Part shown: piece by piece, positions 2,925 through 28,535 of the stretch | How positions within the stretch are numbered: position 1 is the first letter of the stretch | Layout: each line of letters starts with the position of its first letter | Source of the DNA: Chloroflexota bacterium | GTDB lineage: Bacteria; Chloroflexota; Chloroflexia; Thermobaculales; Thermobaculaceae | Length of the DNA: 34,570 nucleotides | Direction of reading: 5' to 3' | Assembly (NCBI GenBank): GCA_902810765.1 | Contig: CADDYR010000007.1 | Coordinates: 1 to 34,570, forward strand | The notes under the pieces: generated by a model | Told to the model about the DNA's origin: nothing | What the model saw: only the letters and a program-made list of their open reading frames with translations | Database searches by the model: none | Program-made: the position numbers and the translations under genes

Positions 2925-3018
2925 AGAAAACCGCCTGGCGGGACTGCCACCCCCCGCATCCCTTGTTGTGCCATACAGGCGTGTGTGTTGGCAGGTATCT
3001 CCACCTCAGGCGGTTTCT
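2925..3018. repeat. Inverted repeat flanking a decayed array segment
   Basis: AGAAAACCGCCTG (2925-2937) is matched in inverted orientation by CAGGCGGTTTCT (3007-3018), with one extra A in the left arm. The arms bracket about 70 bp between the degenerate repeat and the first good repeat. The interior holds CATCCCTT and ACAGG in the right order for another broken repeat. It could be a decayed unit, a small inserted element or a trailer structure. Confidence 0.4.
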
Positions 3019-5503: not shown

Positions 5504-5997
5504 GACCAGCAAAACTCCGCGTAGGCGCAGCTTCGGCAGAAGGGTATGCGCTTCGCCTGGGGTGCCCTCTCCCGCCTCATCAGCTCCTCGATCTCGCGCA
5601 CGGAGGTCTCCACCTCCGCCCTGAGCTCCGGCGTGAGCTCGACGACCATACGCTTGCGCTCCTCGGGCACGAGGATCTCTCCGGATGCCTCCACGCCCTC
5701 CCTCTCCAGCCTCCACAGGTAGTAGCCGAGCTGCAGCCTCGCGGCGGGCACGAACCGGGAGGACTTCTTCACCTCTGATACCACGAGTCTGCCGCGCTCG
5801 TAGCGGACCCGATCCAGTCGCATCCCCGGCACGCTGATCTCCTTGGGCGCCCGCTCGTAGTGGGCCTCCTGGTTCAGCCTGCCCTCGACGAGCAGGTCGA
5901 ACTCCCGCTCCGGCTCGATCTCGTGCGCCATCAGCCACGCCTCACGGGGGCAGATTGAGTAGTACCAGACCAGCGTCCCCGTCACCGTCGCGCTCAT
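5500..5997 (-). CDS. cas4: CRISPR-associated exonuclease Cas4
   Basis: This 165-residue RecB-family nuclease has the four Fe-S cysteines in the usual places: Cys16 in SICPREAWL, and Cys154, Cys157 and Cys163 in PFCRSCAYAEFC. Nuclease residues Asp62 (LDRV) and Glu75/Lys77 (SEVKK), plus a following Gln motif (QLGYYLW), are present. Cas4 trims prespacers and helps select the PAM-side orientation. The start overlaps the cas3 stop (ATGA) and the stop overlaps the cas1 start, so cas3-cas4-cas1 are translationally coupled. Confidence 0.94.
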   Translation of the reverse strand: MSATVTGTLVWYYSICPREAWLMAHEIEPEREFDLLVEGRLNQEAHYERAPKEISVPGMRLDRVRYERGRLVVSEVKKSSRFVPAARLQLGYYLWRLEREGVEASGEILVPEERKRMVVELTPELRAEVETSVREIEELMRRERAPQAKRIPFCRSCAYAEFCWS

Positions 5998-8396
5998 AGG
6001 AACTCCGCGCTCTCCGTCGCGCCCGCGCCGCACTCCACCAGAAGGTCTCCGAAGCCGGTTTCCTGGCTGTATTGCTCGAGATGTTTGCAGCGCAGGATTG
6101 CCTTTCCGTAGCTCTCCAGGCGGATTGCCTCCGCGACCTTCTCGGGGACCTGCACTACGAAGTTCTGGAGAAGGCCCATGAAGCGCTTGCGCTGCGTGAA
6201 GGTGAGCCGGGCCAGCCACCTGTCATCCACGTATAGCCCGTAAAGCTCCTCAGGAGTCGAGACGCCGAACGACTGCACGAGCTTCGTGCCTGTGCCGTCC
6301 AGCATCGCGGTGTCCAGGGGAACGAAGATCGGGACGCGCTTGTACTCGGCCCCGAACGGCTCTGTTCCGCCGAGCTCGCTCCACTTCCCGGCCGCCGCCT
6401 CGGCCAGCTTCTGGCAGGCGGTCACGTGGCGGTTGCGCGCGAACACCTCTGTGTAATAGTCGGAGACGGCCGATCTCAGCTCCGTCTCCGTGAGGCACAC
6501 GCCCGGCGCCAGCACCTGATCGCTCACCTCCCGCTGGTCCCTGTCGCGGTAGATGTACTCGCGCGTCGGCTGCTCGCCGCCCCGCGCGAAGTCGAACACG
6601 GTCACTCGTGCGAGATCCTCGCTCGCGTTCCTGTTCGCCCTCCCCGCCGCCTGCACCACCGACGGCAGGATCGGCCTGGCGCGAAACATGCGCTGGAAGC
6701 TCAGGTCCACCCCCGCCTCCAGGACCTGCGTGCTCGCCACGGCTACCGGCTCTCTCTGCTCGAGCGTCGCCCATATCTGTCTCAACACCCAGGCCTTGTG
6801 GACGGGGCACATCAGGCCGTGGACGTTGAACCTCGCAGCGTCGCCGTCCAGCCGTCTGTACACGAGCACGGCATCCGCGATCGTGTTCAGGATGGCCACG
6901 GCTCGGAGCCCTCCCGAGGCCACCGACTCCAACTCCCACGCGACATCTTCCTCCGACCACACGCCGCTCGCGGCCCCCACTGTATACCTGGGCGGCTGCT
7001 CGACCGACGCGCTCAGGCTCCGCGGGATGCTGTCCAGCCCGTGCTCCGTCGTCGGCAGGGTCGCGGTCACGAGCAGTACCTGCATCGAGTTGGCGCGAGC
7101 CATGGCCTCGAGAGACGTCAGGAACAGGTTCCAGACCCTGTGATCGAGTATCTGCGGCTCGTCCACTATCAGGAAGGCGCGCTCCAGCGCGGGGATCCTG
7201 AGGGTCTGCTGCGCCCTCCTCGGGAACAGCGCGCGGAAGAGCTGGTTGAAGGTCGTGGCTACGATGGGCGACTGCCAGGACTCCATCGCCAGGTACCCGA
7301 GATCGTCCATCTGCTCCTGCGTGTTCGTGGCCAGATGGTGATGCTCGAGCACCTCGGTTCCCGTGGCCTCGCGTACATCGCGAGCGGCCTGGGAGAGGAT
7401 CGCCAGGTAGGGGGCGACGTAGACCACGCGGCGGGTGTTGCCCCTCGCCACCGACTCCAGCCCGACCCGCAGCGCGGCCAGCGTCTTGCCCAGCCCGGTG
7501 GGCACATTCAGCTCGTAGAACACCTCGTCCGGATGCTCCGTATACAAGCGGGAGGCCGTTTCCTGCACCCGACCACGCTTGCCGGCTATCTCTCCAGCGC
7601 CCTCGGATTCGGCCTTCCGGGCCTTACGCGTGCACAGCTCGCTCAGCGTCTCCAGACCGGACCTCGCTGTCGCGACGTCCATCCGGACGTGGCTCAGCCC
7701 CGACGAGTGGAACCGGTCGGCAGCGATGAACCTGCCGGTGCTTCCCCGGATGCACCTGCCCGCCATGGCCCTCGGGTCGCGCTTGCCCTCGCGCAGGATA
7801 GGCGCCAGCTCCTGCACCGCCCACCGTTTCCACATCCTCCGCAGGTCCGAACAGAACTCCTCGACCCGCCGGGCATCACCCATCCAGGCTGGGTAGTCCG
7901 ATGGCACCCACCGGCACACGAGAGCGTTCAGCCCCGCCACGTCGGAGGACGAAAGCGCGTCCGACTGCCACGCGTACCACCAGGGAGGGTCTTCGTCCAG
8001 CCCGATATCCCCCAGGACGGAGTGGTGGTCGGCCACGTCGCGCGCGATCCACATCATCTCGACGAGGTGCTCGCTCCGCTCCCTGCCCTTCAGGCCGGAA
8101 GCCCCGATCAGGTGATGGGCGTACATGCAAACGAGCATCGAGCCCAGGAACGCGTGTGGCACCCGCAGCTCGCGTTTGCGCCTGGGATCGCGCTCCCGTA
8201 TGTACGCCTGCCACCTGCTCTGGGCCTTGCCCGCGTCGTGGAGCAGTCCACCCAGGAACCTCATCCGCTCCTTCAGATCCCCCTCGGGATCGCCCCAGCC
8301 GTGCGCGACGGCGACGAGGTGCTCTGCCAACGGGTGGCTGTGCGACCCGTCGTCAGGTCGCGCAATGCACTCCTCCAGAGGTATCACCACAGGCAT
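5994..8396 (-). CDS. cas3: CRISPR-associated helicase-nuclease Cas3 (HD-DExH fusion)
   Basis: The 800-residue product has an N-terminal HD nuclease (LLHDAGK with His53-Asp54, and VADHHS further on) followed by an SF2 helicase. Walker A is PTGLGKT at about residue 300, the DExH-type box reads VDEPQ at about 410, and LLVTATLP and the motif VI segment QAAGRANRN (about 585) follow. After Cascade opens the target, Cas3 nicks and unwinds the displaced strand. The ATG at 8396 lies 13 nt inside the end of cas5. A longer in-frame reading into cas5 has no Cas3 similarity. All key catalytic motifs look intact, so interference should be functional. Confidence 0.95.
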   Translation of the reverse strand: MPVVIPLEECIARPDDGSHSHPLAEHLVAVAHGWGDPEGDLKERMRFLGGLLHDAGKAQSRWQAYIRERDPRRKRELRVPHAFLGSMLVCMYAHHLIGASGLKGRERSEHLVEMMWIARDVADHHSVLGDIGLDEDPPWWYAWQSDALSSSDVAGLNALVCRWVPSDYPAWMGDARRVEEFCSDLRRMWKRWAVQELAPILREGKRDPRAMAGRCIRGSTGRFIAADRFHSSGLSHVRMDVATARSGLETLSELCTRKARKAESEGAGEIAGKRGRVQETASRLYTEHPDEVFYELNVPTGLGKTLAALRVGLESVARGNTRRVVYVAPYLAILSQAARDVREATGTEVLEHHHLATNTQEQMDDLGYLAMESWQSPIVATTFNQLFRALFPRRAQQTLRIPALERAFLIVDEPQILDHRVWNLFLTSLEAMARANSMQVLLVTATLPTTEHGLDSIPRSLSASVEQPPRYTVGAASGVWSEEDVAWELESVASGGLRAVAILNTIADAVLVYRRLDGDAARFNVHGLMCPVHKAWVLRQIWATLEQREPVAVASTQVLEAGVDLSFQRMFRARPILPSVVQAAGRANRNASEDLARVTVFDFARGGEQPTREYIYRDRDQREVSDQVLAPGVCLTETELRSAVSDYYTEVFARNRHVTACQKLAEAAAGKWSELGGTEPFGAEYKRVPIFVPLDTAMLDGTGTKLVQSFGVSTPEELYGLYVDDRWLARLTFTQRKRFMGLLQNFVVQVPEKVAEAIRLESYGKAILRCKHLEQYSQETGFGDLLVECGAGATESAEFL

Positions 8397-9085
8397 ACGT
8401 ACTCCTCCGAGGGCAGCCGCAGGAGCCTCACCGGCGGGTCGAGCGCGCCCGGGTTGGGACGGAACAGCACCGGCCGCCCGGAGTTCTCGTAGAGGAGGTT
8501 TACCGTTCCCCTGAAGCGCCGGTTGCCCAGGTGCTCGTACAGCATGCCGCCGCATCGCGCGAGCTGCTGTCCCTCCGCAAGCTCTATCCCCGACACGAAG
8601 TGGACCGGCACGACGCTCCTGGTGCTGACGATGCCTTCGGGCAGAGCTTCTACAACTTCGCCCTCCACCAGGTCGCCGAAACGCGGCACCGTGAGCGCGA
8701 AGGCGCTGCCGAGGTAGGTGGGATAGTGGCTCCACCGAGCGCGGATGCGCTCGGCAAGGACGTCCAGGTAGTCGCCGGAGTAGTAGATGCGGTAGTGGGG
8801 GTTGACGACCAGCTCGATGGATGTCGGCCGGTTGAAGTCCGAGCCACCGTCCCCCAGAAAGCCCTTGCCGAGCATGGACATCTGCTGGACGCGCGTGCGG
8901 ACCGGACTCAGGAGCTCGATCCCCACCCAGCTCTCGCCCCTGAACTCCTCCAGCCCCACCACCGACCCGACAAGCCCAAGCAGCGCGGTTCGCGTGATGA
9001 AAGGGTAGGTCGCCTGGGTAGCCAGTGTGTCCGGTCTTCGGAAGTGGCCTATGCTACCCCGGAGCTCGAAGACCAGCAGTCTCAT
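8384..9085 (-). CDS. cas5: Cascade subunit Cas5 (type I-B)
   Basis: The 233-residue RAMP-superfamily protein begins MRLLVFELRGSIGHFRRPDT, the typical Cas5 first strand and loop, followed by SFP-like Tyr-Pro-Phe and a Gly-rich helix (LLGLVGSVVGL). It should cap the crRNA 5' handle in the Cascade complex, next to Cas8 and Cas7. The gene starts 3 nt after the cas7 stop and overlaps cas3 by 13 nt. Confidence 0.92.
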   Translation of the reverse strand: MRLLVFELRGSIGHFRRPDTLATQATYPFITRTALLGLVGSVVGLEEFRGESWVGIELLSPVRTRVQQMSMLGKGFLGDGGSDFNRPTSIELVVNPHYRIYYSGDYLDVLAERIRARWSHYPTYLGSAFALTVPRFGDLVEGEVVEALPEGIVSTRSVVPVHFVSGIELAEGQQLARCGGMLYEHLGNRRFRGTVNLLYENSGRPVLFRPNPGALDPPVRLLRLPSEEYVCLW

Positions 9086-9088
9086 TGT

Positions 9089-10051
9089 TTACCACAGCTC
9101 CTGACGGCTGCCGGGGAGCTCGCCTCTCAGAGCCAGGTTCGGCTGCTGCCAGTACCGGATTCGCTCGATGGCGGGTGAGTACTGACGCAGTATCGCAGCG
9201 AGCGGCTCGATGTCCAGCTCGATGTCCTGCACGCTCGACGGCTGCTGTCCGTTCATCCAGGCGTCGCGCTCCGGCAGCAGCCGAACGTTGTCCTCCAGGT
9301 AGCCGATCCTGAAGAACGGGTCCCTGTACTCGACGTGCAGCAGGAACAGAGGCTGCTGAATACCACGGCCACGTGCCTGCCGGTGCTGCGTGCCTCGCCA
9401 AAGTCCTTCGATCATCAACTCGAGGTCGGTGTCCTGCATGCCCGTGAGCTGAGCCAGGCTCTGGTTGATGATGCCGCTGACCGCGAACACTGCGAACGGC
9501 TGGGTGTAGGTGCTCCAGATGGTGCCCTGAGACAGCCCTCGTTCTTCTCCGGCATCCGATACGCTGATGTCGGATTGCGGTATCACGGTCGTGCCTTGAG
9601 CGTAGCGGGTCACGACCGGATGAAGGGAGTGCGCCCAGCCGAGCTGCACCGGCCCGGTGAGCTTGAAGTTCTCTCCCTCGACGGAGTACACGATCCCGAA
9701 CACCCGGACGTCGAACGCGTGCTTCGCCAGGCGCTGCTGGAGCGAGCCATCACTCCCGGCGTTCGCTCGCTTGACGATCTCTTCCGCCAGGCTCTTGCGC
9801 CCCAGCAGGTTTCGGCCTCTCCTCTCCTCGCGCGCGAAGACGAAGTTGGCTTTCTCCTCACCACCGTCGGGGTACTTGGCCAGCACGTAGTCTCGCACGT
9901 CGCGCTTGATGCTGACGTCCGACAGCGAGATGCGCCCGTCGTCCTCTCCGAACAGGCGCCGGGCATCGCTGTCGGCCAGCGGGTCACGGTTGGGGATGCC
10001 ATCCTTCGCGGCTTTGACGAACAATATCTCTCCACTCTTAGCCACGGTCAT
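9089..10051 (-). CDS. cas7: Cascade backbone subunit Cas7 (Csh2-like)
   Basis: At 320 residues this matches Cas7/Csh2 length. The N-terminal NRDPLADSDARR corresponds to the family's Asn-Pro-Asp-Pro loop region, and residues 115-145 (FDVRVFGIVYS...LTGPVQLGW) form the conserved central strand and glycine turn. Several copies of Cas7 coat the crRNA spacer in Cascade. The gene sits between cas8b and cas5 in the usual I-B order, 32 bp after the cas8b stop. Confidence 0.93.
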   Translation of the reverse strand: MTVAKSGEILFVKAAKDGIPNRDPLADSDARRLFGEDDGRISLSDVSIKRDVRDYVLAKYPDGGEEKANFVFAREERRGRNLLGRKSLAEEIVKRANAGSDGSLQQRLAKHAFDVRVFGIVYSVEGENFKLTGPVQLGWAHSLHPVVTRYAQGTTVIPQSDISVSDAGEERGLSQGTIWSTYTQPFAVFAVSGIINQSLAQLTGMQDTDLELMIEGLWRGTQHRQARGRGIQQPLFLLHVEYRDPFFRIGYLEDNVRLLPERDAWMNGQQPSSVQDIELDIEPLAAILRQYSPAIERIRYWQQPNLALRGELPGSRQELW

Positions 10052-10083
10052 CGGTTATGCACTCCTTTCTGTTCTTGCAAGTA

Positions 10084-10524
10084 CTACACGGCTGCTGGCT
10101 GACTATCCTCCGCTGGCTGCGTCTGAGCGCCGTTCAGCCAGTAGCCGGACCAGAACGCCGCCATGAAGCTGTCGCGCGATCGCTGAACCTGGCCGCGCAT
10201 CGCCAGATAGCTGCTCAGCCAGATCCCCGCGCGCTGGCGCAGCGCGTTGGGGAGATGGGCGTTGACGCGCATCGCGTACTCCTCGAACTGGGATATCGCC
10301 TTGTACGCGATCAGGTCGGGCGTCAGAGAGCTCCCGAAGGACATCACCCGATGCTTCAGGAAGTCCTTGCCCTCTCTTCCCACCTTCGTCGCGGCCCAGT
10401 ACTGGCGCGCGAATTGTCTGACCAGGTAGCCCGCGGCGAAGCCCAGCTCCTCCACGGTCTCCAGCTCCAGCCGGTCCGGCGGCTGGTCCTCCAGAACCTC
10501 CTGCAGCTCCTGCCAGGATCTCAC
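10084..10524 (-). CDS. cas11: Predicted internal small subunit Cas11 within cas8b
   Basis: Codon 550 of cas8b is a GTG preceded by AAGGAG with 8-nt spacing, a strong ribosome-binding site inside a coding gene. Translation from it gives a 146-residue, mostly helical protein (starting with VRSWQELQEVLEDQ) that shares the Cas8b stop. It is known for I-B, I-C and I-D systems that Cas11 is made from an internal start in the large-subunit gene, and no separate cas11 is present here. Assignment to Cas11 is an inference from position, size and the ribosome-binding site. Confidence 0.6.
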   Translation of the reverse strand: MRSWQELQEVLEDQPPDRLELETVEELGFAAGYLVRQFARQYWAATKVGREGKDFLKHRVMSFGSSLTPDLIAYKAISQFEEYAMRVNAHLPNALRQRAGIWLSSYLAMRGQVQRSRDSFMAAFWSGYWLNGAQTQPAEDSQPAAV

Positions 10525-12171
10525 CGCTTCCTCTCCTTTCCCCGCGACGTCGGTGTTGTAGCGTCGCACGAACTCACGAAACACCAGAAAGAACAGCACC
10601 TCATGGCGCATATCGAAGCTGCTGTCGGGCAGACGGTGCGACAGCTCGGCCATTCGGTACGCGCTCGCCCTGACGAACCTGGAGAGTGACAGGGGCTGCC
10701 GATGCAACACCTCGGAGAGCGTCTGCCATAGGTAGGTGCTGCCGTAGGCCCTGCTCAGCAGACTCGGCAGGGAGGTTAGCCGGTCGCGTAAGAAGTCATC
10801 GTTGCCACGGGTATTCAGTCCGAGCCTCCGCGTCAGGGGGGCAATCACGGTCCGAAGCTCATCCAGCTCGTCGTTGATCGTGCTGGCCACGGACGGGACG
10901 ACGTCCTCGATCACGGCGCGAAGCGTGGGACTGCTGGCCTGTCCGACGGTGTAATAGAAGATGTCGAGCCTGTAGAGGTCGTCGTTGAGCTCGTCCGGCA
11001 GGACCTGTTCGAGGCCCGTGAGCGTCCTGAGGTGCAGCTCGTGGGGCCTCCCCGTCCGGGCCTGGCACATGTAGTCAATGTTCGAGGTGAACCGTTCCCG
11101 CGCGTAATCGTCGGCCGCCACGTCCTGTAGCACGGGAAGGACGAACGCGCTCCCCGAGATGGTTGCCGGAGAGCTGCCCCTGGAGCGCGTCCTGCGCCCC
11201 TCGGCACTGTCTATCGGCGAGAAGATCTCCTTCGTCAGCCAGGTAGGCATGTCGCGCTTCAGACGGTAGAAGACCTTGCTCCCATAGGTGAGGGCGCCGT
11301 AACACCTGGAGCAGAGCGCTATCCCCTCGACGAGCTGAGGTTTGGCCCCACGCCGCCTGAGCTCGTTCGACACGGGTCCCGTCCAGGTGGCGACCAGCCA
11401 CGGCCACGACTTGGAATAGGACGAGACCACCTCACCGGCCGCGCCGCACACGCTGCACGTCGCATAGTCGCCGTCCCTGCTGCCGTACTCTGCCCCTTCG
11501 TCCGCCTTGGCGCGCCAGAGCGCGTCCACGATACGCTCGAGGTTCGGAGATATCCACAGGTCCGGCCGTATGGCGCTCCTCGCGAGCCAGATCTGATCCG
11601 CCTGAGCGGAGTAGTGGTAGAAGCCGTCCTCCTCGACGACTGCGAGCACGACAATCCCAAGCTGCCTTGCTGAATCAGATGTGCGAGCGGCGGCAAAGCT
11701 TGCGTTCAGAAGGCGGACGATCTCTTCCATCTCGCATTCGTCGAGCCTCAAGCCGGACGTGCGCTGAAGCCGCCCTCTCAGGAACGCCCGGATGGCCTCG
11801 CCCCCATCAGTGCTCGCGAACTTCACCCACTGCTTCTCGTAGACCGGGTACACGGGTACTGCGTAATTGCCTTGGGGCTGGAGGGGGTTTCCGCCGGAGG
11901 GCAGCATCCACGGAGCGGAGACGGTGCGGCCAGGGTCCGGCGCAAAGACTTCCTTCCTCCCCTCGGTCTTGAAGTCTCCGAAGGCGTACATCGGGTGAGA
12001 GGCGATCCGAGTTGAAGACTGTGTTCGATCCGCCTCAATGACGAACACGTGCTGCCAGAAGTTCCGGGCCGTCGGATCTTCGATGCTGCTGATCTGGCGT
12101 ATGACCTCGTCCGCCGACTGCCCTCCCTCGACGTAGGGGCGGCCCAGCCTTATCAGGCTCTCGATTATCAC
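10084..12171 (-). CDS. cas8b: Cascade large subunit Cas8b (Csh1-like)
   Basis: The 695-residue protein is placed by position between cas6 and cas7 and by a zinc-ribbon pair, CSVCG and LCSRCY, about 45 residues apart in the middle, as in Csh1-type Cas8b. Cas8b recognises the PAM and recruits Cas3. The GTG start overlaps the cas6 stop (GTGA). An upstream extension in the same frame lies wholly within cas6 and is low-complexity, so it was discarded. The C-terminal 146 codons appear to be translated separately as Cas11 (see the internal feature). Confidence 0.9.
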   Translation of the reverse strand: MIIESLIRLGRPYVEGGQSADEVIRQISSIEDPTARNFWQHVFVIEADRTQSSTRIASHPMYAFGDFKTEGRKEVFAPDPGRTVSAPWMLPSGGNPLQPQGNYAVPVYPVYEKQWVKFASTDGGEAIRAFLRGRLQRTSGLRLDECEMEEIVRLLNASFAAARTSDSARQLGIVVLAVVEEDGFYHYSAQADQIWLARSAIRPDLWISPNLERIVDALWRAKADEGAEYGSRDGDYATCSVCGAAGEVVSSYSKSWPWLVATWTGPVSNELRRRGAKPQLVEGIALCSRCYGALTYGSKVFYRLKRDMPTWLTKEIFSPIDSAEGRRTRSRGSSPATISGSAFVLPVLQDVAADDYARERFTSNIDYMCQARTGRPHELHLRTLTGLEQVLPDELNDDLYRLDIFYYTVGQASSPTLRAVIEDVVPSVASTINDELDELRTVIAPLTRRLGLNTRGNDDFLRDRLTSLPSLLSRAYGSTYLWQTLSEVLHRQPLSLSRFVRASAYRMAELSHRLPDSSFDMRHEVLFFLVFREFVRRYNTDVAGKGEEAVRSWQELQEVLEDQPPDRLELETVEELGFAAGYLVRQFARQYWAATKVGREGKDFLKHRVMSFGSSLTPDLIAYKAISQFEEYAMRVNAHLPNALRQRAGIWLSSYLAMRGQVQRSRDSFMAAFWSGYWLNGAQTQPAEDSQPAAV

Positions 12172-12923
12172 CTCACCACCTCCACGAGACCGAAACCGGC
12201 GGGGTTCTTGGATCCGAGGCCGGAGTCGTAGGCGAGCCTGAGGTACCGCTCGGGCAGGCTCGCCTCGTACACCCCCGTCCATCCCTTGATCACGGTGCCC
12301 TTGTACCGCAGCACCTTCTGATCCTGTATCCGCACCCGATGCGGCCGCACGTAGGCCCCGCGAAGCTCCTCCTCGACGTCCCCCTCCCAGCCGAGGACGC
12401 GCGCCTTGCGCGCGAGGCTCGCCACGAGCGAGGCCGACCAGTCCCTCTCCTGCGGTGCGTAATAGTACGTCTTCCGCCTGCCGTCCGGGGCGGTGAGCGT
12501 GGTGTACGCCGTGATGGGCGACAGCGCCCGCAACAGCACGGGGCCGCTCGGGGCGATCTGGGGAAACGGCTCGACCACGACCTCCCCCACGCGGCACAGC
12601 TCGCGCCCGAGCAGGACCGCCGGACGCGTGAGCAGGTGCTCGGCGAGCGAGGCCAGCACCTCGTCGTCCACCGAGCTCATGCGAAAGGTGACCGGACCGC
12701 GAAAGGTGATCCGGCCGTCGTGAAACCGGGCGTCGCCCGTCAGCCTGCTGAACGTGAAGAGCTTGTACGGCCTGGCGGGCGGGCCGTGCCCGCGGTCGTG
12801 CAGCCGGGTGGATAGCGCTCGGTCCAGGTTATAGTAGATCAGCGCCTGGACGAGGTCGTTGTACTGGATGGGCAGCGTGATCTGCTCCGACTCGGCGGGC
12901 TCCAGGACTATCCGTAACCGCAT
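12168..12923 (-). CDS. cas6: CRISPR repeat endoribonuclease Cas6
   Basis: The 251-residue protein has the Cas6 C-terminal glycine-rich signature GLGSKNPAGFGLVEV. Candidate catalytic histidines are His42 and His46 in the N-terminal ferredoxin-like domain (LHDRGHGPP). Cas6 cuts the pre-crRNA in each repeat, leaving the ATTGAAAC handle predicted for this array. It is the first gene of the operon; GGAGGAGG ends a few bases before the ATG. Confidence 0.94.
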   Translation of the reverse strand: MRLRIVLEPAESEQITLPIQYNDLVQALIYYNLDRALSTRLHDRGHGPPARPYKLFTFSRLTGDARFHDGRITFRGPVTFRMSSVDDEVLASLAEHLLTRPAVLLGRELCRVGEVVVEPFPQIAPSGPVLLRALSPITAYTTLTAPDGRRKTYYYAPQERDWSASLVASLARKARVLGWEGDVEEELRGAYVRPHRVRIQDQKVLRYKGTVIKGWTGVYEASLPERYLRLAYDSGLGSKNPAGFGLVEVVR

Positions 12924-16248: not shown

Positions 16249-17733
16249 CTAGGCCCCTGCCAGCTCGAGCGTGGATACCCTGCCCGAGGACACCTCGGCG
16301 ACCCGTATCGCGTGGTTGTTGGTGTCGGCAATGAAGACGCGGCCGCGGACTGCCGAGAGACCACCGGGCTCGCTGAACTGGACCGCAGAGCCCGTGCCGT
16401 CCCCGAAGCCCGCGCGCCCCGATCCGAGCCAGCTCGCGCACCTGCGCGTGTCCGGATCCAGGCGCTTGACCTTCGAGTTGTACGTGTCCGCGACGTACAC
16501 GAGCCCGTCGAGCCAGCATACGCCGAGCGGGTGCTGCAGCCTGACCTGTTCACCCACCCCGTCCTCGTCGCCGAACTCGAACAGCCCGACGCCGACGAGC
16601 GTCTCCACCTTCCCGCTCGCGGGATCGAATGTCCGCACCGAGCTCGTCTCGCTGTCAGCAAAGTAGATCAGGACGCCGTCGGTCGTGAGGCCGCTCGGCT
16701 GGGCCAGCTGCGCACGGGATGCCGGGCCGTCCTCGAGTCCCTCGACCCCGCTGCCTGCGCAGGGGCGTATCAGGCCGCTCGACAGCTCCAGCGCCCAGAG
16801 CTGGTGCATCCCAGCCATCGCGATGTAGAGCACGTTCTCGAGCACGCACAGGTCCCACGGCGAGCTGAGCGCGGCCTCGCGGCCCCGCGCTCCCTCGCGC
16901 GCGTAGCCGTGCGCCTGCTCGCCCGTGCCGGCAACGGTCACGACGCGTCCGGTGCCGAGGTCGAGGCGTCGTATCGCGTGGTTCTCGGTGTCGGCGACGA
17001 AGAGCTGGTCGTCCTGGAGCGCCACGCCCTGCGGGTGATCGAAAGCCGCCGACTCCGCTTCCCCGTCCGCGAGCCCGGCCTCGCCCCTGCCCCAGACGCG
17101 GCTAACTCTGCCGTCGAGGCCCGCCTCCAGCACCCGGTTGTGGCCCGAGTCCGCGATGAACAGCCGGGCGGACGCCTCGTCGGCCAGCACCTTGCCGGGG
17201 TACGCCAGCGTTCCCTCCGGCCTGCGCTCGGGCTGGAAGTCGAGCCTGCGGCGGACGAGCAGCCCCTCCCGGTCGTACTCCTCCACCATCGCCGAGAGCA
17301 GCCTGTCGAGCTCCTCCGAGCTCAGCTCGCCCTCGTGCCGAGCGACTATCCTGCCCTTGGGATCGACGAAGTACAGGGTTGGCCAGGCGCGCACCGCGTA
17401 CTCCTGCCACACCCGAAAGTCGGCGTCGTTTACGACCGGGTGCTCCACCTCGTATCGGCGGACGGCGTTCCGGAGGCCGATCTCCGCGCGCTCGGCCATG
17501 AACTTCGCGGAGTGCACTCCGATCACGGTGAGTACGTCGGCGTACTTGCGCTCCATCTTCCGCAACTGCGGAAGCGTGTGCATGCAGTTGATTCAGCAGT
17601 AGGTCCAGAAGTCGAGGATGACGATCCGCCCGCGGAACTCCATGAGGCTGATCGGGTGGTCGGTGTTGAGCCACTGCAGGTCCGGGGGGAAATCGGGGGC
17701 CGTGACCGTGCCTGCGAACCTGGACTGCGGCAT
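16249..17733 (-). CDS. Thioredoxin-NHL repeat protein, predicted selenoprotein (Sec47)
   Basis: From the ATG at 17733 (AGGAGGT, 6-7 nt spacing) the frame reads a thioredoxin-like N-terminus, then an in-frame TGA at 17595-17593, then a beta-propeller of NHL repeats, 494 residues in all. Around the TGA the protein reads [19 protein letters not shown]2-like relatives have CCINC here, so the TGA replaces the first Cys of the redox CxxC motif and gives UxxC. Thioredoxin fold features continue after it ([14 protein letters not shown]). NHL blocks such as [37 protein letters not shown] and [13 protein letters not shown] follow. A hairpin fitting bacterial SECIS rules lies just after the TGA. A truncated product from Met51 would lack half the redox motif. 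The likely role is a cytoplasmic thiol or peroxide redox enzyme, substrate unknown. Confidence 0.85.
17557..17574 (-). promoter_or_regulatory. Predicted bacterial SECIS hairpin
   Basis: In the mRNA, CUUCCGC-AGUU-GCGGAAG forms a perfect 7-bp stem with a 4-nt loop. The loop's second base is G, 27 nt after the UGA. Bacterial SECIS elements need a small apical loop with G among its first two bases about 16-37 nt downstream of UGA, so this one fits. It would bind SelB to recode the UGA as selenocysteine. Confidence 0.75.
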
Positions 17734-17994
17734 CGCGTTACCTCCTGTCCGGTGTGCGATGGACGCCCTTCATTCTACCCCAGCCCGCCGTCGGGGAGCT
17801 ACCAGTACCGAGCTGACGTGATCGCCCCGTACACGATCCTGGTCCGAGCCCTCTATCGCCACCAAGTCTCCACGAAAGCTCAAGGAGTAATCACCCGTTC
17901 CCGCCTAGACTCGATGCTATGTTCAGCGGCAGGCTGCGCGCCGTATCTCGAAGATCGGCACCGCCCGGATCGCAGGGACTGCGAGGTGAATACC

Positions 17995-19206
17995 ATGACT
18001 AGACCGCTTGTGGCCTGGGCAGCGATGGTGGCCACATCCATGGTAGTTGTGCTGGCGCTGTCCCTCTTCCTGCAGTACGGGGGACCGATAGCGGCTCACT
18101 CGCACTCCGAGCACGAGGACCTCGCCGACGGTCCCGCCCAGAGCACGGCCTCTCGAAGCGCGGAGGCGCGCTCGAAGTCGCGGACCCGCGTGTACTACAT
18201 CGCGGCCGACACAGTGAAGTGGGACTATGCTCCCACAGGCAGGAACCAGATCACCGGCAGGCCCTTCGACGAGGTGGCCGACACCTACGTCAAGAACGGC
18301 CCTGATCGCATAGGCAGCATCTACTACAAGTCCCTGTATCGCGAGTACACCGATGCTTCCTTCAGGCACCTCAAGCCGAGGCCCAGGAGCGAGGCGTACC
18401 TGGGGCTGCTCGGTCCGGTGATACGGGCGGAGGTAGGGGACACCATCAAGGTCGTCTTCAGGAACAACACCCCGTACCCAGCGAGCGTCCATCCCCACGG
18501 AGTGTTCTACGGGAAGGACGCCGAGGGCGCGCCGTACAACGACGGCACGCGCGGCAGGAACAAGGACGACGATGCCGTCGCGCCGGGGAAGACACATACC
18601 TACATCTGGCAGGTGCCCGAGCGGGCGGGTCCGGGGCCGATGGACCCCAGCACCGTGCTTTGGATGTACCACGGGCATGTAGATGAGCCCAGGGATACGA
18701 ACAGCGGGCTCATCGGCCCGATGATCATCGGCAGACACGGCAGCCTCGGAGCCGACGGCACACCCAAAGGGGTGGACCGCGAGTTCATCGCGCTGTTCAC
18801 GGTCTTCAACGAGAACGAGAGCTGGTACCTGGACAGGAACATCCGAACGTTCACGCGGGACCCGAAGAGTGTGGATCCCGAGGACGAGGACTTCCAGGAG
18901 AGCAACCTGATGCACTCGATCAATGGGTACGTGTACGGCAACCAGCCCATGATGACCATGAAGAGGGGCGAGCGCGTGCGCTGGTACCTGATGGCGATAG
19001 GCACCGAGGTCGACCTGCACACCCCGCACTGGCACGGCAACACCGTCGTGATGAACGGTATGCGCACCGACGTCGCCGAGCTGCTGCCCATGAGCATGAA
19101 GGTGGCGGACATGGTGACCGACAATCCCGGCATCTGGCTCTTCCACTGCCACGTCAACGACCACATCGTGGCCGGAATGATCACGAGGTTCGAGGTAGAG
19201 GAGTAG
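17995..19206 (+). CDS. Membrane-anchored multicopper oxidase, ceruloplasmin-like
   Basis: The 403-residue protein has an N-terminal hydrophobic anchor or signal (residues 4-30) and then two cupredoxin domains. All four copper-binding His clusters are seen: HPHG (about 166-169), YHGH (about 225), HTPHWHG (about 342) and the type 1/type 3 motif HCHVNDHIVAGM (about 384). The opening YYIAADTVKWDYAPTG and the block LGLLGPVIRAEVGDTIKVVFRN resemble ceruloplasmin, hephaestin and coagulation factor A domains more than CotA or CueO. Members oxidise Cu(I), Fe(II) or phenols with O2 outside the membrane; a two-domain form may work as a trimer. ATG at 17995 has GAGGTGA upstream. It is divergent from the selenoprotein gene and followed at 5 nt by a small membrane protein. 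Confidence 0.9.
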   Translation: MTRPLVAWAAMVATSMVVVLALSLFLQYGGPIAAHSHSEHEDLADGPAQSTASRSAEARSKSRTRVYYIAADTVKWDYAPTGRNQITGRPFDEVADTYVKNGPDRIGSIYYKSLYREYTDASFRHLKPRPRSEAYLGLLGPVIRAEVGDTIKVVFRNNTPYPASVHPHGVFYGKDAEGAPYNDGTRGRNKDDDAVAPGKTHTYIWQVPERAGPGPMDPSTVLWMYHGHVDEPRDTNSGLIGPMIIGRHGSLGADGTPKGVDREFIALFTVFNENESWYLDRNIRTFTRDPKSVDPEDEDFQESNLMHSINGYVYGNQPMMTMKRGERVRWYLMAIGTEVDLHTPHWHGNTVVMNGMRTDVAELLPMSMKVADMVTDNPGIWLFHCHVNDHIVAGMITRFEVEE

Positions 19207-26736: not shown

Positions 26737-26991
26737 TCAGGCCACCTGCTCCCTCAGCCTCGCGAGCAGCTGGTCGTTCGTGGGCTCGACCAGCACCGAG
26801 CCGTCCGGGAAGATCAGCGTCGGGACCCTCATTATCCCGCCGTTCAGCTCGAGCATCCTCTCGGACGCTCCCTCGACCTCCTCGATATTGACCCACTCAT
26901 AGCCCACGCCCAGGTCGTCGAGCAGCGCCTTCGCGCGGTGGCAGTCCCCGCACCACGTGGTGCCGTACATTACGATCGCCTCGCCGGACAT
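26737..26991 (-). CDS. Mycoredoxin-like glutaredoxin
   Basis: The 84-residue protein opens MSGEAIVMYGTTWCGDCHRA with a CGDC redox centre after the first strand, and has the cis-proline RVPTLIFPDGS. Length and sequence layout fit mycoredoxin-1/NrdH-like glutaredoxins, which reduce mixed disulfides with low-molecular-weight thiols. A start 11 codons further upstream (ATG 27024) is possible, but no ribosome-binding site precedes it and the extension is not family-like. Confidence 0.88.
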   Translation of the reverse strand: MSGEAIVMYGTTWCGDCHRAKALLDDLGVGYEWVNIEEVEGASERMLELNGGIMRVPTLIFPDGSVLVEPTNDQLLARLREQVA

Positions 26992-27084
26992 CCGTACCCC
27001 CAACCGATTGACTACTTCAACCATGATGCCACACGGCGCGCGAAAACGGCACCCCGCCCCACCGGCTCTCGGTAGCGCGACGGG

Positions 27085-27966
27085 TCACCGGAGGCTCGCG
27101 AGCACCCCACCCAGGGTGAGCCAGTAGTACACCACGTAAGCGCCCGCCACGAGGAGCAGCACGGCGCTCACCGGCTCGACGAACCGCGCGGCCATCCTCA
27201 CATTCGCGATCACAGCGTTCCTGACGACGGCGGCGCTGAGGGTGAGCGCGGAGAGCACAGCGCCCATCCCGAGCGCGTACAGCAGGAACTGGAGCGCGCC
27301 TGAGCGGAGGCTGCCCGTCGTCGTGGCGCTGCCCACCACCGTGAGGAAGATGGGAAGGGTGCAGCCGAGCGAGGCCGCGCCGTACGCCACGCCGTACAGG
27401 AGGTAACCTCCCGCGCCGATGCGCCGCGCGCTGGCGCCCACCCTGTCCGCGAACCGTGCGGCGAGGCCGGAGTACAGTCCGCCCCCCGCGATCATCCGCC
27501 CCCCGGCGACCACGAGCAGCGCGCCCACTACGAGCCCGACGAGCGGGAACAGCCGCGACAGCTCCGCGGTGAGCGCGCCCAGCACGAGGCCCGTCGCCCC
27601 GAAGAGCAGCACGAAGCCCAAGGTGACCGCGCCGCTGGCCCACAGCGCCCTGAGCAGTGCCCAGCCGCGCCCGCGCCCGGGGTCGCCCAGGTAGAGGGCG
27701 AAGTACACCGGGAGCAGCGCGAAGCCGCACGGGTTGACCGCCGCGAGCATGCCCGCGCCGAATGCATAGTACCGCACGGGAAGCCCCCGAGCTATCTCGC
27801 GCAGGAACGAGCCCGAGGCGAATGAGAGGGACTCCACCCCGCTCGTGAGACCGCCCGAGCCCGTGAGCAGGGCGGCCGCGACCGCCAGCGCGAGCGTCAG
27901 CCCAGCGATCCCGACGCCGAGCCTCTCCCTAGCCGTGCCCGTCGTGACGCGCGCCGTCCTGCTCAT
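27085..27966 (-). CDS. CcdA/DsbD-type thiol-disulfide transport membrane protein
   Basis: The 293-residue protein has about seven transmembrane helices after an N-terminal extension. The two redox cysteines of the CcdA family are seen: Cys in AAVNPCGFALLPVYF and Cys in AASLGCTLPIFL. Such proteins carry electrons from cytoplasmic thioredoxin to extracytoplasmic partners. The ATG overlaps the stop of the TlpA-like lipoprotein gene (ATGA), which is its likely partner. Confidence 0.9.
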   Translation of the reverse strand: MSRTARVTTGTARERLGVGIAGLTLALAVAAALLTGSGGLTSGVESLSFASGSFLREIARGLPVRYYAFGAGMLAAVNPCGFALLPVYFALYLGDPGRGRGWALLRALWASGAVTLGFVLLFGATGLVLGALTAELSRLFPLVGLVVGALLVVAGGRMIAGGGLYSGLAARFADRVGASARRIGAGGYLLYGVAYGAASLGCTLPIFLTVVGSATTTGSLRSGALQFLLYALGMGAVLSALTLSAAVVRNAVIANVRMAARFVEPVSAVLLLVAGAYVVYYWLTLGGVLASLR

Positions 27967-28535
27967 CCCAGCTTCCCGAGGAGCTGCCGCACCCCGGCCT
28001 CGAGCTGCTGCCGCGAGATCGAGCCGGAGTGTACCTCCACCACCCTGCCGTCCCGAGAGAGGAACACCGTGGTGGGCAGCGCCACGACGTCGAACACCTT
28101 GAGCGGGGCCGAGTCGACGGCGTATGCGGCCGGGTACGTTATGTGCAGCTGCCGCAGCAGCGTCCGCGCGTCGAGGTGGCTGCCGTAGCCCGTCAGGGGT
28201 CCGACGTCCACGCCGACGAATATCACCCTGCCCGCGTACTCCTTCGAGAGGCTCTCGAAGGCCGGCATCTCGGCCTTGCACGGAGGGCAGGTAGCGCCCC
28301 AGAAGTTGAGCACGACGGGCCTGCGGTTGCGGAAGACCTCCGAGAACCGCACCGTCCTCTTCCCGCCGAGCACGTCCCCGCCCTGGTACACCGAGATCCT
28401 GAAGTCCGGCGCGCGACCCTTCCGGCCCGTGGCGGCCGCGCCCGGCCCGGAGGTCGTCTGCTGGCCGTGGGAGGAGGCACCGCACCCGGCGAGCAGGATC
28501 GCGAGGGCGCAGAGCAGCCACAGACTCCGATGCAT
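27963..28535 (-). CDS. TlpA/ResA-like thioredoxin lipoprotein
   Basis: The 190-residue product has a lipoprotein signal (MHRSLWLLCALAILLAGCGA; lipobox LAGC) and a TlpA-type thioredoxin domain with CPPC in FWGATCPPCKAEMP at about residue 83 and cis-Pro in VALPTTVFL. It would reduce disulfides outside the membrane, fed by the CcdA-type protein encoded by the overlapping next gene. Targets could be cytochrome c apoproteins or copper-site proteins. GGGAGG precedes the ATG by 6 nt. Confidence 0.92.
   Translation of the reverse strand: MHRSLWLLCALAILLAGCGASSHGQQTTSGPGAAATGRKGRAPDFRISVYQGGDVLGGKRTVRFSEVFRNRRPVVLNFWGATCPPCKAEMPAFESLSKEYAGRVIFVGVDVGPLTGYGSHLDARTLLRQLHITYPAAYAVDSAPLKVFDVVALPTTVFLSRDGRVVEVHSGSISRQQLEAGVRQLLGKLG

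Follow-up and report, generated by a model that had tools for sequence, protein, structure and literature searches.

The minus strand of the window, meaning the whole stretch of 34,570 nucleotides that was analysed, carries at positions 16249–17733 a gene of 494 codons that almost certainly encodes a selenoprotein, the UGA at codon 47 being decoded as selenocysteine (Sec). Sequence, domain and structure matches assign the product to the SOQ1/NHLRC2 family, in which a thioredoxin-like domain is joined to an NHL propeller, and the comparative data show that these Sec forms of NHLRC2/SOQ1 make up a true family of selenoproteins. A sequence-only reading of this DNA had proposed a probable unannotated selenoprotein with a UxxC motif; that proposal is now supported by the Sec genes of the same genome, the alternation of TGA with Cys codons only, a bacterial SECIS hairpin and the covariation of its stem.

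Reading frame and start site

The ATG of the predicted Sec gene (17733–17731, minus strand) is preceded at a distance of 7 nt by a Shine-Dalgarno sequence, AGGAGG (17741–17746), which is the near-perfect ribosome-binding site that had been reported for this upstream ATG. The TGA of codon 47 (17595–17593) is the sole in-frame stop, and the frame is then open to a TAG at 16249. Translation with readthrough gives FWTYC-U-INCMH around codon 47, which makes Sec the leading residue of the redox motif UxxC (residues 47–50), equivalent to the second Cys of CCINC. The thioredoxin-like domain, located by Pfam, structure matches and the model, spans approximately residues 7–161 (17250–17715), and a six-bladed NHL beta-propeller, located by Pfam, the model and Foldseek, spans approximately residues 175–494 (16252–17211).

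Mechanical ORF calling instead yields an ORF of 444 amino acids that starts at Met51 (16249–17583, minus strand) and lacks the redox centre, as the sequence-only reading had stated. Exactly this ORF is expected if the TGA is a real stop, in which case a 46-residue peptide would be followed by a separate NHL protein from Met51 and the gene would be split or decaying. Such a split is very improbable. Inspection of the letters upstream of the Met51 ATG found no Shine-Dalgarno-like sequence, and Met51 is not conserved, relatives having Leu, Ile, Ala or other residues there. A break at codon 47 would moreover cut the thioredoxin fold, whereas the TGA is common to 57 loci where the protein is intact both before and after it, and is followed by a hairpin that covaries. 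The open frame and an AlphaFold model that is unbroken at residue 47 agree with the earlier description of a thioredoxin-like domain continuous across the TGA.

Codon 47 in homologous genes

Alignment at position 47 was examined at 129 homologous loci with a readable codon there. The codon was TGA at 57 of these, TGC at 45 and TGT at 27 (72 Cys codons), and no other codon was found. The other residues of the CC(I/V)NC motif all match; the second Cys alone is replaced by Sec, giving CUINC. SOQ1 and NHLRC2 align through the TGA with CCINC, consistent with the earlier statement that relatives carry CCINC and that the second Cys is TGA here. One homologue, L075, has GCINC and thus lacks the first Cys of the motif, which may therefore be dispensable.

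The source assembly is fragmented (384 contigs), and the TGA could in principle be a TGC or TGT that was misread or misassembled, an outcome that the sequence-only reading had named as fatal to its proposal. The TGA is, however, conserved at the 57 loci, occurs in dozens of independent genomes, including the nearly closed genome G028 (2 contigs), and nearly always stands beside the hairpin. By these comparative data the error explanation is already refuted, and its remaining probability is negligible.

Selenocysteine machinery of the source genome

The source genome (3.98 Mb, 96% complete) was searched for selA, selB, selC and selD, whose absence would have told against Sec insertion; all four genes are present, each above the cut-off. 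The scores were 535 bits for selA, 333 bits for the main stretch of selB (359 bits with its neighbours in frame), 67 bits for selC (tRNA-Sec), which ARAGORN called as SeC with anticodon tca, and 362 bits for selD. The selD gene (L021; G000 C6:20309-21238) has an in-frame TGA of its own in the motif CAG-U-AAK and is therefore a selenoprotein gene too; UxxK is the Sec site given for SelD (PMC13188914).

Reassignment of UGA to Trp or Cys, or generic readthrough, would produce the same codon choice at position 47. UGA nevertheless terminates IspF, Cas6, Cas3 and further conserved genes of the window in the ordinary way, so the code is not reassigned genome-wide. A complete Sec pathway with a Sec codon in selD, and a site that alternates with Cys only and is tied to a SECIS, likewise argue for Sec, and insertion of any other residue is extremely improbable.

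SECIS hairpin

The putative bacterial SECIS lies downstream of the UGA at 17574–17557 (minus strand), where the sequence CUUCCGC-AGUU-GCGGAAG forms seven perfect pairs below an AGUU loop. The loop begins 25 nt past the UGA, its G (17566) lies 27 nt after the UGA, and the folding energy is −10.4 kcal/mol. Bacterial SECIS elements are defined by a loop of 3–9 nt, a stem of 4–16 bp, a G within the first two nucleotides of the loop, a distance of 16–37 nt from the UGA and an energy of at most −7.5 kcal/mol (PMC13188914). The window hairpin obeys all of these rules, and its letters confirm the geometry given in the sequence-only reading.

The same rules are satisfied at 51 of the 57 TGA loci versus 2 of the 72 Cys loci; the Fisher probability of 1.5e-26 overstates the certainty of this contrast, since loci of related genomes are not independent, but the contrast stands without it. 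Judged from their letters, most of the six TGA copies that fail the strict rule have one stem mismatch or fall marginally under the energy limit. When the window peptide was recoded synonymously 200,000 times, only 0.11% of the recodings contained an equally stable, rule-abiding hairpin, which indicates that the window hairpin is more than chance. Across 54 distinct sequences, 91.5% of stem cells were paired and 35 double changes were counted, compared with 11.3 in shuffles. The covariation score was 0.332 against 0.164 in shuffles, none of the 500 shuffles reached it, and controls with slid partners gave 0.139 or less. Folding of a 61-nt segment of the window against dinucleotide shuffles gave a z of only −1.1, weak as single-sequence evidence, and for this reason the SECIS claim rests on comparison. 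An Rfam search at the hairpin site returned no SECIS family match.

Fold and nearest relatives

The protein matches the Pfam families Thioredoxin_8 and NHL, and within the thioredoxin-like domain PF08534 scores just above its cut-off. Its nearest solved relatives are SOQ1 (7djj, 1.7e-128) and NHLRC2 (6gc1, 2.6e-110). An AlphaFold model built with 34 sequences (pLDDT 93.6, pTM 0.91) places residue 47 just before a helix at 48–63 and has six four-stranded blades. Foldseek aligned this model to SOQ1 and NHLRC2 with TM scores of 0.94 and 0.92, respectively.

Human NHLRC2, the FINCA disease protein, has the same thioredoxin-like domain and six-bladed NHL propeller, with its CCINC aligned and 41% identity in the structural alignment; the window protein differs in having Sec for the second CCINC Cys, in lacking a C-terminal beta domain and in being bacterial. 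The lumenal region of plant SOQ1 (7djj/7djk) shares the two domains and is the best match in both sequence and fold, but SOQ1, which is chloroplast-anchored, additionally has a C-terminal extension and a HAD domain, and it carries Cys where the window protein has the predicted Sec. Mycobacterial DipZ (2hyx, 5cyy) has a related thioredoxin-like domain with a CINC motif but is a membrane CcdA-type fusion in the Cys form, with no NHL propeller. The Trx-like and Prx-like UxxC selenoproteins of bacteria share the leading Sec of UxxC, the thioredoxin fold and a bacterial SECIS, whereas none of them is listed as an NHL-propeller fusion or as NHLRC2/SOQ1 (PMC13188914).

Predicted mechanism

With the SECIS hairpin, which lies 18 nt downstream, as a guide, SelB and Sec-tRNA(Sec) would decode UGA47 as Sec, and the product would be a two-domain member of the NHLRC2/SOQ1 family that looks cytoplasmic. 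Sec47 is predicted to lie at the start of helix alpha-1 and to face the cleft between the thioredoxin-like domain and the NHL propeller. The CCINC motif of NHLRC2 is turned towards the cleft with the propeller and exposes its first two Cys (PMC6107167), and it is on this ground that Sec47 is proposed as a nucleophile acting on a propeller-held partner. With the partner bound in the propeller cup, the Sec47 selenolate would attack one of its oxidised groups, such as a disulfide or a sulfenate, and the intermediate would be resolved by Cys50 or perhaps by the vicinal Cys46. The Cys forms found elsewhere presumably perform the same chemistry with a thiolate. This scheme is the one that we would favour, with some reserve. 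Since the insulin assay detected no reductase activity of human NHLRC2 (PMC6107167), generic thiol-disulfide exchange is not to be assumed for the family.

The natural occurrence of Sec likely marks the second CCINC Cys as the nucleophile. If the Sec form is the phylum-wide family described below, that Cys would be the catalytic nucleophile throughout the family, including human NHLRC2. NHLRC2 is essential in mammals, a fatal disease of childhood involves mutations in it, and in plants photoprotection is under the control of SOQ1; we know of no account of the chemistry of the CCINC motif common to the two. The placement of Sec at one of three motif cysteines can be regarded as evolution's own mutagenesis; as material for testing, the Sec forms may have the higher activity.

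Distribution and history

Strong matches to the protein were found in 84 of 400 sampled Chloroflexota genomes. By a count of the listed matches, about 58 of the 81 that cover the site contain one TGA, its exact position having been checked in the fetched loci rather than in all 58. Named records of the Sec form include Dehalococcoidia, SAR202, a Thermomicrobiaceae bacterium and Rokubacteria. On these sequences the Sec form is the common, majority form in Chloroflexota and is also found in Rokubacteria. The earlier description of a Sec member as unusual holds for the family as a whole but not for Chloroflexota.

On a tree from which the motif and SECIS columns were excluded and whose root is not fixed, the Sec and Cys states require 8 changes, compared with about 41 in shuffles. 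The window's family forms a clade (support 100) of two Sec forms and one Cys form, and the genome with the Cys form retains selA. Among 50 named genomes from across phyla, selA was detected in 14 of the 16 that have the TGA form and in 14 of the 34 that have the Cys form; within the class 60 of 63 relatives have selA, so co-occurrence is uninformative at that level. In three TGA genomes (G106, G114 and G007) no selA match passed the cut-off. Incompleteness is the likely cause in all three, as G007 has a completeness of 51% and G106 and G114 were assembled from metagenomes.

Footprint of the SECIS in the protein

The loop and 3' arm of the hairpin encode Q-L-R in 43 of the 57 TGA forms, and the corresponding residues are D-L-K in 54 of 60 ordinary Cys forms. 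The codon for the loop residue Leu57 is TTG in 56 of 57 TGA forms versus 8 of 72 Cys forms, and among the 49 Leu codons of the window gene no other is TTG. These patterns indicate that the putative SECIS RNA constrains the protein sequence.

Twelve Cys forms, the long-branched L125 and L075 among them, fall within or close to the part of the tree held by Sec forms; 10 of the 12 have QLR-like residues rather than D-L-K, and their hairpins are lost or broken. In such QLR-bearing Cys forms Sec appears to have been replaced by Cys, leaving a protein fossil of the SECIS, a direction of change that we infer on a tree with no fixed root. L143, L144, L145 and L152 are Cys forms that retain Q-L-R, and in these four the residues are probably fossils of a lost SECIS. 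The family would thus show an RNA element shaping a protein sequence, with fossils that remain after the loss of Sec.

Relation to known selenoprotein families

What is probably new is the Sec form of the known NHLRC2/SOQ1 family, a new selenoprotein family within a known class. The sequence-only reading had called it perhaps not described, and nothing in the searches contradicts this. Neither NHL nor NHLRC2 nor SOQ1 figures among the entries of a 2026 inventory covering 119 families of prokaryotic selenoproteins (PMC13188914), and the searchable literature, in which recent coverage is incomplete, contained no relevant report of an NHL or NHLRC2 selenoprotein. No NCBIfam model exceeded its cut-off for the window protein, and 33 relatives matched the same generic models or other short or distant families.

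A generic entry might already include the family, either "Redoxin family protein" (PF08534, UxxC, HEU0032618.1) or "Trx-like 1" (COG0526), which would affect only its novelty. The marginal PF08534 match is compatible with such a listing, inventories hold UxxC redoxin and Trx-like groups from short marine reads, and PGAP calls a distant Cys-form NHL fusion a "redoxin domain-containing protein". Prior listing is nevertheless unlikely, as neither inventory entries nor searchable papers name this architecture as a selenoprotein and no NCBIfam model captures it. The family is probably an undescribed, phylum-wide one, in which Sec is usual among Chloroflexota NHLRC2/SOQ1 proteins, has been exchanged with Cys several times and has left the QLR footprint of a lost SECIS in Cys copies within Sec clades. 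A widespread family would thereby be added to the prokaryotic selenoproteome, and the NCBIfam models suggest that current annotation would cut its members short in dozens of genomes.

Other genes of the window

No conserved operon or gene neighbour that would hint at a cellular function was found in the five Sec-form relatives examined, and other NHLRC2 homologues are likewise reported to be without a conserved operon (PMC6107167). In the window a multicopper oxidase gene (approximately 17995–19206, plus strand) is divergent from the selenoprotein gene. A thiol-redox cluster at 26738–28535 (minus strand) comprises a TlpA/ResA-like lipoprotein-like gene with CPPC, an overlapping CcdA/DsbD-like membrane gene and a glutaredoxin-like gene, all of them Cys forms. 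A second thioredoxin match with a TGA (27957–28334, minus strand) was considered as a selenoprotein and rejected; it is a TlpA-like gene of the ordinary CPPC type, and its TGA serves as a stop codon that overlaps the next start. Type I CRISPR-cas genes for Cas3, Cas7, a Cas_TM1802-type protein and Cas6 occupy 5994–12923 (minus strand), and an Rfam "skipping-rope" RNA match lies at 2930–3014 (minus strand), with a score of 45.6 bits, above the gathering score.
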